Of a DNA stretch of 64,000 nucleotides, positions 10,001-19,000 are shown piece after piece (position 1 is the stretch's first letter; each line of letters begins with the position of its first letter). The translations under genes and the position numbers were made by a program. The stretch is from NCBI GenBank assembly GCA_916610825.1, contig OU744452.1, positions 5,396,521-5,460,520 of the forward strand, written 5' to 3'. The notes beneath the pieces were generated by a model that saw nothing but the letters and a program-made list of their open reading frames with translations, did not search any database and was not told the origin of the DNA. Source of the DNA: Haliclystus octoradiatus (taxonomy: Eukaryota > Cnidaria > Staurozoa > Stauromedusae > Haliclystidae).

Positions 10001-13000
10001 CTATCATCATAAATTAAATTTGTTGAATATTGTAGAGATTCAATCACAATTTATGGTTTTTGAAATTGTAATTGATATTGTAGAGATTCAAAATGACATA
10101 TTCAAGTAACGTTTAATTGACCACCAACTTCCTTATCATTCGTTAAAGTCATCCCCCGGCCCGTAGCTATCAATAATTGTGTTGCTAATTCATAATTAAA
10201 TCACGTAGTTCTGCTATGTTGCTCTCTTTCTAAATATGTGGTTGGCAACACAATCTTTTGTCAAATTTAAAAACTAAAAAACCTAAATTTTATAGACAAA
10301 ATGACCAGGTGACCCTGATACACAGGGTAAATGCAATCGAAAACACTATGTTAGATATTGCAAGACTGGCCATCAGAGTCAGAAAAGATGTTTTTCCTTC
10401 TGCCAACTTATCCTTTCAAAACTTTTTGGGGTGGCTACATTATGAAATTGTTTTTACATCTTTTGTATTAGAGAGCAATTGTCATAGAAATGTAACAAAA
10501 ACCGCACAATTTTACCAATCTTCTGATTAAAAAGAATTGAAATCAACTATTGAATTCCCTTTCTTCTGAATTTGTTCTAACCTTCCAGGACTCTCAGTCT
10601 CAGAATGCCCTTTTTATCAAATCCTGGTTGCCACTATACACTACCAACAGAGAAACCGTGAAAAAGTCATTAAATTACTATGAAAAAACCGTGAAAATGT
10701 CAAAAACCGTGAAAAATACGTGAATTGGGCTTCATCATTTTTGTCTGTATGTTTACTTGGCCGTGAAAATTCCGTGAAAATGTTAATGTTTCGTTCAAGA
10801 CCGTTATAATACCGTGATATCATAACTATTCTCAAAATCCTCACCGTGAAAATAGCGTTAAAAATCTTTAGAAATATTTCACGGACAGCTTGAGTAGAAC
10901 ATTGGAGAAAAAGATCGCGGTAAATGTTGAAGTTAAAATCGTGTAGTGAAAATTGAAATCATTACAAATTTACCGTTTTAATAATATCAAATAAAAGTAC
11001 TGATAGATTACTTTTAAGATATAACATCAATGACTTGATCATTATTTGCGCAATATAATTTATATAAAGCACATCACAATCTTGCATTCTATCCTTACAG
11101 TAATTTTAATGAATACAGATGTAGATTTTCCAACACAGTGGAAATGCTGAGAAGATAATGTTGACGAAAGAGATCTTTTTTCTCAATATAGTTGTTCCAC
11201 AATGTGAAAATGTTTACAGAGCATTAATTCTCAAATCGAAATATAGATTAGTAGGACGTCAGGATTTATCGTTTGTGTACTCGCCAGACTGAAGTTACTC
11301 TAAAAACAGTACAAGTATATCGTACTTCAAAACTTACCCGATTTCATTTTCATTTATTTATATATGTACATGGGCGGACAACGGAATAGAGATTTCGATT
11401 CGACCAGTAACAAATATCCTTCAGTCAAAGAAGAACTGCGTATTGCGAACCAGAGAACAGAGACAAAATCAACAACACAATAACTATACAATATATTTAA
11501 AATTAACAAGGAAAATAAAGGGGTAAACTCTTGAATAATAATATAAAATAATTCAAAAAGTAGGGTTAGCGATATTAATTAATTTAAACCACGTTTTACG
11601 TAGTGTACGTTTGTTAAAGTCAACCAACGTTGAATGTCTGTCAATAGATGTTGTTGACTTCATCGACTTTATTTAATTTGATACACATACTGTTCTCTTG
11701 TATTTCCACATCATGTGACGACACAAATTGTGCTTCAGTGACGTCATTAAGGATTTATATATTTATATATGTACATGGGCGGACAACGGAGTAGAGAGTT
11801 CAATTCGACCAGCTACAAATATCCTTCAGTCAAAGAAGAATTGGGTAATGCAAAGCAGAGACAGATCAACTATACATGATAACTACGAGATAATATTAAA
11901 TATATCGTATACTAGACATTATAAATGATGATAACCTGCATATGATAATACAAACTATTGTGTGATATCGTGCAGTTAAAAGTACGTCCCCTATATTAAT
12001 ATCTTGATATTGATACGAAAAGCTTATGGAAACTCAAAGAATAGGTATAATCAAACAAATGAAACAAGACATAGCCTAAAGCTGAGGTTAGATACATTAT
12101 ATATAACAGTGAAACATGTTCCCAATGTCATACCTAATTTGTCTAGGGTAATTCAAAATTGATATTGAAATGGGCCACATCGATTTGCACTGAGATGGTT
12201 TTTGGAAGGGGTCAATACCATCCGTGGAAAATAATATAGACAGGCCCCTTGGATCTCCATTAAAGTAACCATTTTCAGAATATAAGTCTTTCCACCTGGA
12301 AGTATGATGAACATCACTTATATGCTCATCAGTATCGACTACCTCGTTGTGACTTTGTAACAGTTTCGGTAATTTATAGTTGGCGTAATACCATCGATGT
12401 ATCTCGGTTGGTGACACTCTGAGCACTTCAGATCTGTACTTGGTTCAAATACTATACAATCATTAATACAAATGTCATACGTTACCAATTTTACACTAAA
12501 GTCATCAACGAGGCTTAAAGCTCTTCGAAATGTATCTGGCATATGATTCGGTTGTGGATATGAAGCCTTGAGATGTTTCATCAGTTCTGAAAATGCGTCT
12601 TTGCTTATGCTTGGATGTGACGAGAACCACAGCATATAAAATGCCATTTCCTCAAGTACAGTGTGTCTGCTAGAGTCGCAATTTTTTTCTTGTAATTTCC
12701 AATTGAAGGAGATGTCTATGTCTTCATCAGTTACAATAGAATTATCGTCGCACTGATTATGCACATTCAAATATTCATTAACGTCAATGTCTTCTCCTTG
12801 GATACTGCTTGCATTACTATCTCCATCATTGTCATCATCATTATCATCAACTGGCTGGCACGGCGAATCAGCATTTTCAATTTCAATTATATTTATTACA
12901 CTATTAAGATCGTCATTACCGTTTTCTACTGATATTTCATTATTAATTGGATGCTCTATCTCTGAATAATCATTCGCTTCATATGATAATCCAAAATGGG

Positions 13001-16000: not shown

Positions 16001-19000
16001 AATTATCGTTGTTATGCATCTTCATAATAATACAAATAAACACAAAAATGGTATAAATCATAAGATCAATATCACAACAGTTATCATATTTATTAATGTT
16101 AGCTATGCTTATACGTACGATGCTTACTCGGTCTATTCTCCTATTCAGACATGTACGCCATGGTTGTATTGAAAGCAAAGAATCCATCAAGTACTAAAAC
16201 AATTGAGCTTCACGGGAAATCGGAAAAGGGAAATTTATTTTTCAAGGATGCACCCGTAAGTATATCATTTTGTGTTGTTTACCAGCTAAAGTGTGGGCGA
16301 TTGTAGATTATTGCATGAGATGAGTTATGTGGTAGGCGTCCGATTTATTTACAGAAGTTACAATAGCGGTGATGAATACGCACTGGTTACCATAAAACTC
16401 ATAATAAGAGAAGCGCTCACGTTGCGAAGTTCGGCAGTTATAAAGTCTACGTGAATTGGACATCATATTTATAAAATATCAAGCGCTTAGGGGATGGAGA
16501 TCGACCTTTTTTCAAATAGTTCCATGTATTCTGTATAATTTTGAATAACAACGTTATTGAATCTATCTTTTCAGATTAAAGACAAATTTAAATGGAAGTT
16601 GGCTAAATTGAAAATACCAATTAAATTTGCAAGTCAAGCTAAATCTCCAACTCCTTTACATGAAGTCCCTCAAGTTATGTCCAACGAAGGAAAAAGGCAG
16701 AGAAAAAAGAAAATTATTTATAATATTTGAAAAATATATTACAATTATTTATATTAATTGCAGCCTAATTGTTAATTAATATTGATTATTTTTCTATTAA
16801 TTTTACAATATAATTATTTTCCTGTATTCGCGATGCCTGTTCTCGATTTATCGTTTCGATCTGATGTGATACGAACTGCGTCAAGCGGTTATATTAAAGG
16901 GCATATTTATTGCGACAAATTAAAAGTCGCGCGGGTTATGAAAATGGGAAGAAATATTGCCTTCACTTTGTCAGTACGTTTCACGGCTCAATCACGATGT
17001 TTTCACGGTTCTTTCACGGATATTTTGGTATTAGTTTCATGATGATTTCACGGTTTTTTCACCTTTATTCACGGCATTTTCACGGTTTATTGCGCCGTGA
17101 AAAAGGGCCCAAATAACGTCTTTTTCACGGTTTGTAAAAACGTTAAAAAAACGTTATATTTTCACGGCTTTTTTCACGGTTTTTCGGTTGGTAGTGATAG
17201 ACAGGTGGCTGACTGTATATATGTGACCGTTATAAAAATTTTGACTATAGCAATATTCCTTTTAATTTAAATTATTAAGTAAGTATTGAGATTAATACAG
17301 TGTGCAACATGGTGCGATTCAGATAAGTGGAATCCCTGTTCATCTATAATCTGGCTTTTGAAACCTATACAATGTAATCCGCTCAAGTGCAAGTCAAAAT
17401 TGGCAACGGTTTTCATTGCATTTATCCAAATTTTCGGTTATCGGAATTGTTTACCAAGGACCTGACCAGAAAATAGTTTATAGGGGTTTCAAAGTCAGGT
17501 TGCAGATAAGCGGGGATTTCACTTATCCGAATTGCACTTGAGCAGGTTACACTGTACAAGTAATTTGTTTTTAATCCCATGTTTGTATTACAATTTTGAA
17601 TAAATGCAATGAAAACCATTGGCCAATTGTTGAATTTCACTTAATAACAAAAAACAACAATGAATATTATTTCACAATGACAAAATACCAATTTTTCAGC
17701 AAACACGCTTGGCTCGAAGGTAACAAAATCTGCTTGCAGCTTGTGTGCTTTTTGGGTGGCCAAGTTGCTCACTTGTAAAACAAGCTTTGAATCAAGACTA
17801 GCTTCTCTTGTATGACGAACTAGAAATAGAATTAGATAAAATAAGAAAAGGTAATCAAGTTTCAGGGAGCCTAAATGGTAAACAAGGGATTTTGTATAGA
17901 CTATTCAATGTATTCATTAGTAGGCTAATCGTGACCCAAAGTATTTTTTGAGGATTTTGCATTTGGGTTATAGATAGGGTTGCAGCTTTTCTCACCGGTG
18001 TGAATGCGAATTTCATGATTGCCTATGGTGAATGGTAACGCGAGTAAACAAGAACATTACTAGGCATCAGCGTCCGACGGGTCACGCATTTCTCACATAT
18101 AAAGATCATGACTGGCATTGCACTGAAAGTGTTAGCAATCTCCTTAATAGTATACATACTGTAGTAATATAACTCAGAAAAACAGCACTTAAAGATAATG
18201 TAATTAAACGCTAAAATGACCAACAAATGGAACAACTTAACTTCAACATATGGCAGTGGCCTTTACAATCCATCTAAAAACTATTTATAGTAAAGCTAGC
18301 CTCCTTTATGGATTCCGGATTTCATGCATTTTTAGATTCTTATAATATCTTGATTTTATTTAACTATATTTTAAAGCATCATTAGAATATTATTACTTAG
18401 CACTATATAAATTAGATTTTTTAATCAATGAAAAATATACATGATCTACGTTCTATGATAAAACTATCCGTAATGCCACTTTCTTTGTTGCCAAGGCTTT
18501 GTTGTGTCGGTGGAGATATTCCGTTCTTGCCAAAATTGGACAGGCCGAAAGGATGTGTTAGACTGTCTCGTGACATGAATTGCATAGCCGACATTTTGGA
18601 TCTGTTCCATTCTTTATGATTTTATTTTCAAAATAACTTGTTGATAAGCTTTGGTCTTGCGCAGCTATTAATAATCCTTCTGTCTCAACCTTGAGACCAG
18701 CACTACTCATCCACCTATGTGTAACCTCCTGGTCCACATCTCCTTTCTTAACATTTTTAGGGTATTGATCATGCATTGGTTTTTCCTCCCATCGGCCTCT
18801 CATTTGCTCTAAAGCTTTTGATTTAGCTACATTTTTGATGGCCTTTGCATATTTAGACGCATTCACTTGCCCAGATGGTACAATGTCAGCAATATCTAAT
18901 TTATTTGATATTTGTACAGCTTGTCTATGAATAGAGTATTTTTTCTTTTCCTTCTCATGTCTGTAGACTAGTTGTAGCAGAGGGTCTGTTGATTTATCCA

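Follow-up and report, generated by a model that had tools for sequence, protein, structure and literature searches.

A window of 64,000 nt from the Haliclystus octoradiatus genome (the whole stretch of DNA analysed here, contig OU744452.1, C8:5396521-5460520) contains a CACTA transposon in which a long, multi-exon gene lies head to head with the transposase gene, and this raises the question of whether the second gene is part of the transposon, was taken up from the host or is a gene at all. We searched the genome of this species (262 Mb in 33 contigs), from which all of our evidence is derived, for further copies of the element, its transposase and the second gene, hereafter called the partner gene. 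We consider it likely that the window contains a dead, non-autonomous CACTA copy from a lineage of two-gene transposons, whose partner gene codes for an accessory transposition protein. The interest of the locus lies in this two-gene layout, which is conserved across families, rather than in the window copy itself.

The element comprises 6558 bp (10639..17196), as defined by its terminal inverted repeats and by borders common to its siblings. The repeats (10639..10665 on the + strand and 17170..17196 on the − strand) start with CACTACCAAC and are 93% complementary over 27 nt, and the target-site duplication ATA is present on the left (10636..10638) as well as on the right (17197..17199), in agreement with the borders, ends and duplication proposed in an earlier note on this DNA. 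The additional claim that a split repeat is restored by joining the flanks was barely borne out, as a single match of 66 nt (79%) in locus L022 runs across the joined flanks, with 10 nt of it on the left side. We fetched 19 further copies or partial copies from the genome (all copy counts are lower bounds), and most full-length siblings are about 5.8 kb long and lack the later insert of the window copy. Among the 15 copies for which both ends are available, the window copy included, the target duplication amounts to 3 bp in 13 and to 4 bp in two cases, and the sites differ. The motif CCGTGAAA occurs 16 times in exact form in the element, seven times in the left and nine times in the right 320 bp, mostly in mirrored orientation (10656..10884, + strand, with six forward and one reverse copy; 16979..17179, − strand, with eight reverse and one forward copy). 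The means obtained from 500 shuffles were 0.03 for the left and 0.07 for the right end, and the remaining 57 kb of the window contain the motif only once. With its CACTA terminal inverted repeats, short target duplication, PF02992 transposase and clustered subterminal repeats, all known marks of the CACTA (En/Spm) group, the window element is an ordinary member of this group in its ends and duplications. Its left half additionally contains a direct repeat of 108 nt (11349-11456 and 11754-11861, 89% identical), which is also carried by many siblings, and a 2.5-kb derivative of the family (L039, 1759-4280) has kept both ends and, of the partner gene, only exons 9-10.

The partner gene is located on the + strand and consists of ten exons with 313 codons (942 nt including the stop codon), and all nine introns in the window are of the GT-AG type. 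Exons 1 (13320..13394), 2 (13517..13664) and 3 (13740..13801) are followed by exons 4 (13889..14011) and 5 (14078..14176), which code for the conserved cores REAAK..W..K.....G.K and HL...L.NRR.YLK, respectively, the best-kept stretches of the protein. The remaining exons are 6 (14266..14321), 7 (14410..14457), 8 (15504..15571), 9 (16149..16255) and 10 (16575..16730), the end of which codes for a lysine/arginine-rich tail. Two in-frame stop codons interrupt this reading frame, one in exon 2 (13526-13528, codon 29) and the other in exon 5 (14174-14176, codon 169). The earlier note had described an intact, phase-consistent protein of 287 residues, which proved wrong at two junctions: ordinary splice sites yield the 313 codons with the two stops, and we rejected the shorter model, which needs poor acceptors to dodge them. 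The acceptor of intron 1, a TTTCAG ending at 13516, is correct because the residues (F/I)-N-T after it are kept in four other families. These residues are present in all five families and are followed by W in three of them (the siblings of the window copy and loci L041 and L042), and in the window copy, the position of that W is taken by stop codon 29. Intron 7 contains a hAT-like miniature inverted-repeat transposable element (14516..15262) with CAGTG ends and an 8-bp duplication, TGTATAGG, at 14508-14515 and 15263-15270, which is absent from the window-family siblings examined. Elsewhere in the genome, several full-length copies of it are found at 96-99% identity together with more partial ones (again lower bounds).

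The divergent start codons are separated by an intergenic region of 240 bp (13080..13319, with a GCGCGAA motif at 13153), and a fragment of a transposase gene lies on its other side, so that the head-to-head arrangement described before holds. This stub (12097..13079, − strand) represents the N-terminal part in two frames and stops inside the Transposase_21 domain (PF02992; 9.2e-10), matching positions 7-63 of the 213 in the profile. Parts of residues 12-338 in the N-terminal open reading frame of the transposase at locus L040 can be aligned with the stub, likewise in two frames. At a deletion junction (12126..12131), about 4.2 kb of the longer sibling L037 are missing, and L037 contains later parts of the transposase, spread over more than one frame. 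Six older siblings (L030, L032 and L035-L038) possess another 52 nt that are missing between 12388 and 12389; with these nucleotides, the stub of L030 is a single open frame of 348 codons. Because the stub lies in two frames and both the 4.2 kb and the 52 nt are missing relative to the siblings, the window element is an internally deleted, non-autonomous derivative, without the complete transposase that marks an autonomous CACTA element. Both the partner and the transposase gene of the window copy are thus dead.

The same decay is seen in close relatives. The truncated transposase region is common to the window copy and its 11 nearest siblings, and the partner genes of all of them contain stops, which contradicts the earlier view of a gene staying open while the transposase decays. 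Among the 19 copies holding the respective codons, the stop at codon 29 occurs in two (the window copy and L022) and that at codon 169 in 12. Among the 20 copies, only L030 and L037 have an uninterrupted partner gene, and the others carry stops, frameshifts or deletions or have missing parts; every exon length change in the partner gene of L037 is a multiple of three. The 12 copies with the codon-169 stop were amplified recently, differing pairwise by a mean of 0.9%, compared to 4.0% against the seven older copies and 5.8% among the older ones. Because the same broken gene occupies different sites, these 12 copies were presumably moved in trans. A dN/dS analysis, which the earlier note had suggested, gave values of 0.19 for dS, 0.05 for dN and 0.27 for dN/dS between the two open copies (Fisher p 3e-7), and 35 of their 68 differences fall on third codon positions (p 0.0015). 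The partner gene therefore displays signs of purifying selection, the strength of which is uncertain.

The second gene is also found far beyond the window family. PF02992 was matched at 36 places in the genome, of which 17 belong to the window family and 19 lie outside it, and 14 control genomes contained no match. Four of the outside loci (L040, L041, L042 and L045) were read directly, and each of them carries a partner homologue with collinear exons upstream of the transposase on the opposite strand. The families were compared through these partner genes, three of the four outside partners being 26-35% identical to that of the window family. L040 represents a different tnp2 family with the same divergent layout (Transposase_21 at 1.8e-22), and its partner gene (blastp 7e-28, 26% identity) consists of ten collinear exons and is open over 330 residues. 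The partner gene of L041 is open over 342 residues in 11 exons and, minus one of its ten introns, shows the same intron phases as the nine of the window gene. The partner gene of L042 is clear in exons 1-5 (two pieces at 3e-9), to which the comparison is confined, and exons 6-10 were read by eye, with exon 6 out of frame at its join. L045, the partner gene of which has stops in exon 4, belongs to a family closer to that of the window because its exon 2 is 53% identical over 45 residues (5.5e-11).

We surveyed this pairing further by protein searches of the genome with the partners of the window, L041, L042 and L040, comparing the hits to the PF02992 matches. A divergent partner match was found upstream of all 17 Transposase_21 matches inside the window family and of 15 of the 19 outside it, so that the gene pair indeed recurs in other copies, as the earlier note had proposed to check; some of the 15 pairs are copies of one family, so that the 15 do not count as independent cases. 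The outside pairs are located (transposase/partner) at C7:9465918/9467384, C5:12947336/12946228, C1:12763783/12762675, C2:3087794/3089348, C4:10235504/10237088, C2:31517996/31516870, C4:5214111/5214902, C4:20248558/20247885, C7:14742535/14745860, C14:308644/308167, C7:12148752/12150333, C5:18233393/18232272, C10:13968900/13967456, C1:19883463/19882422 and C11:6458475/6456678, and a remnant pair outside the PF02992 list consists of transposase DNA at C4:32513186 and a partner at C4:32515685. Because its place is the same in several diverged families and its sequence bears the marks of purifying selection, the gene appears to belong to the transposon and not to be peculiar to the window family. 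The divergent position kept across families suggests that the elements need the partner for moving.

The starts of the partner and the transposase gene are 240-390 bp apart in four families. The motif GCGCGAA, followed by a stretch ending in AACC, was observed between the divergent starts in three of four families (window 13153, L041 511 and L042 404); it is absent between the starts of L040, and L045 is covered for 120 bp only. The motif resembles an E2F site and might tie the two genes to the cell cycle.

The partner proteins comprise about 310-340 residues encoded in ten or eleven exons, and the four full-length ones, representing three families, have a basic pI of 9.3-9.6 and tails rich in lysine and arginine. 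Pfam scans of five partner proteins gave no significant match, in line with the earlier statement that no domain is recognised: the best one, to TetR_C_37, was obtained with one of the five and is at chance level (E 0.015; 13.1 bits, the cut-off being 27), and Myb/SANT/MADF domains were not matched either. Among 5.8 billion predicted proteins, the 313-residue query returned 1937 candidates, none with E <= 1, and a five-member alignment returned 5744 candidates with no relative among them, in searches that reach only relatives sharing short exact words. The PDB sequences yielded no relative, the only two matches being at chance level (E 0.59 and 0.73), and none of the 60 pattern matches in viral contigs was confirmed. 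As far as these searches go, the partner is a protein of no known family. The region from REAAK to NRR.YLK may resemble helical DNA-binding domains such as BEN, to which it has no match in Pfam.

From these properties, we propose the following mechanism. A TNP2-type transposase and a basic partner would be transcribed away from a shared divergent promoter region of 240-390 bp. The partner would enter the nucleus and then probably bind to the subterminal repeats, which are CCGTGAAA in the window family. It could help the transposase to find and pair the element ends and may in addition regulate the promoter or silencing. The end repeat and the diverged partner would be specific to each family, and the end repeats indeed differ between families, as the L040 element contains TCACAACTTTTTC-like repeats before its TAGTG right end. 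Such a partner would play the part of plant TNPA or of the Myb-like protein of Harbinger elements, without visible relation to the latter.

Plant CACTA elements share with the window element the subterminal repeats at both ends, and plant TNPA binds to such repeats. The plant En/Spm system also resembles the window element in its CACTA ends, short target duplications, TNP2-type transposase and a second element-encoded protein. TNPA is described there as the DNA-binding partner of TNPD, and both proteins of maize Spm are derived from one alternatively spliced transcription unit (excerpt of PMC1636069), whereas the second gene of the window element is separate, divergent and split into ten exons. 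This arrangement sets the partner apart from TNPA, which we know by description only, and we did not class it as a TNPA. Among animal elements, SmTRC1 of Schistosoma likewise combines a Transposase_21 transposase with a further element-encoded protein of unknown family, for which its authors found no relatives and which we liken to the partner by description only (excerpt of PMC1636069). SmTRC1 differs by its CCC ends and 2-bp duplications and by producing further proteins via alternatively spliced transcripts, one of them with two tandem open reading frames (PMC1636069). A Hydra element of the TRC type has CCCAGCCAAC ends, according to the excerpt of PMC4298943. PIF/Harbinger elements also contain two protein-coding genes, and the Myb-like protein of zebrafish Harbinger3_DR binds to a 9-bp subterminal motif and is required for nuclear entry of both proteins (excerpt of PMC9710019); their transposase belongs to another superfamily, and the partner described here matches no Myb/SANT/MADF domain in the Pfam scans. 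The excerpt of a 2025 study of fungal transposons including EnSpm mentions no such second gene (PMC12730594), and the titles and opening lines of abstracts covered, which take in neither Repbase Reports nor most subscription journals, do not report a divergent second gene in animal CACTA elements.

Several observations weigh against an accessory transposition protein of a two-gene lineage. The partner gene models were built from genomic DNA alone, and that of L040 is open only if the donor of exon 5 is moved 5 nt further on, as our first choice breaks the frame. That the outside families have CACTA ends is deduced from their transposase together with a single right end, that of L040, the left end of which was sought and not found, its place being taken up by a stretch of N and a long TAA repeat. 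Of the 19 Transposase_21 matches outside the window family, four (C11:10376598, C2:22649426, C7:25358259 and C8:4105905) lack a partner among the matches listed, and all four are weak or partial. Conversely, at least 13 partner matches have no PF02992 match among those listed (C8:10847332, C8:10854752, C1:32371064, C2:12792304, C4:25131198, C4:8349151, C8:10375278, C2:12593511, C1:15636332, C5:22066146, C1:22513543, C6:17267609 and C2:12798670). Concerning selection, the dN/dS ratio of 0.27 speaks for constraint, but other pairs of copies range from 0.14 to 0.46, which leaves its size uncertain. The strength of selection is further in doubt because the introns of L030 and L037 diverge less than their third codon positions (7.6% compared to 11.2%, a difference we cannot explain), and measured against the introns, dN amounts to only about 0.7 of the neutral value. 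Finally, the Pfam and PDB searches gave no fold, domain or solved relative that would point to DNA binding. The intron divergence, the adjusted donor of L040 and the unpaired partner matches slightly lower our confidence in the proposal.

The best surviving alternative, which we nevertheless regard as unlikely, is that the partner acts mainly as an anti-silencing or regulatory factor, as TNPA does for its promoter, and is not part of the transposition complex. The short distance between the two starts in four families would suit a common promoter, and TNPA reportedly reactivates its methylated promoter and represses the active one (excerpt of PMC1636069). Our observations fit regulation and end binding alike, and the dense repeat arrays at the element ends suggest an end-binding protein of some kind.

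Less likely still is the second possibility left by the earlier note, namely that an ancestor of these CACTA families captured a host gene, which they carry as cargo, perhaps with a host-related function. Gene capture by CACTA elements is known in plants, and ten exons are unusual for a transposon gene. Our searches detected no similar protein, and a host locus may be among the unpaired partner matches. These points are outweighed by the same divergent position of the gene in families with only 26-35% identical partners and by the constraint on the protein since the families split, and any capture must predate that split because the diverged families share both the gene and its position. Capture by the window element alone was rejected in view of the homologues beside 15 of the 19 transposase matches of other families. 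The remaining alternative, that the gene model is an artefact of short open stretches lined up by chance between splice-like borders, could be suspected from the window copy, which does not read through, and from the poor junctions of the 287-residue model, but it has next to no chance of being right and is refuted by the conserved homologues, with protein sequence, exon order and intron phases kept in L040, L041 and L042 and exons in L045, and by the third-position excess and low dN/dS.

We therefore favour the accessory transposition protein, because several divergent families in this genome have a homologue arranged head to head with their transposase. More tentatively, and with rather less confidence than in this general reading, we suggest that the lineage has a two-protein system of its own, in which an undescribed family of basic proteins, its gene fixed head to head with that of the transposase, co-evolved with family-specific repeats, is expressed from one divergent promoter and replaces TNPA. 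If true, partners outliving their transposase could form a new reservoir of DNA-binding proteins for host genes. Animals are known to possess CACTA-type transposases, and what else such elements need for moving is little discussed in the papers covered; the conserved second gene is a concrete candidate for this need. It may also serve as a marker by which such elements are recognised, and it is a caution to annotators, being a transposon gene rather than a host gene whose function is unknown.

The window contains further features apart from the CACTA element. Large retroelement-like open reading frames on both strands at 26501-35307 look by eye like protease, reverse transcriptase and integrase, and a marked GC skew is present at 26-30 kb. 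A series of open reading frames at 46818-57349 looks, also by eye, like exons coding for a receptor with immunoglobulin domains and a membrane segment. A long ATA/AAT microsatellite, in which the GC content decreases to 0.20, extends over 23300-24100, and a similar array follows the partner gene of L040 on its 3' side.

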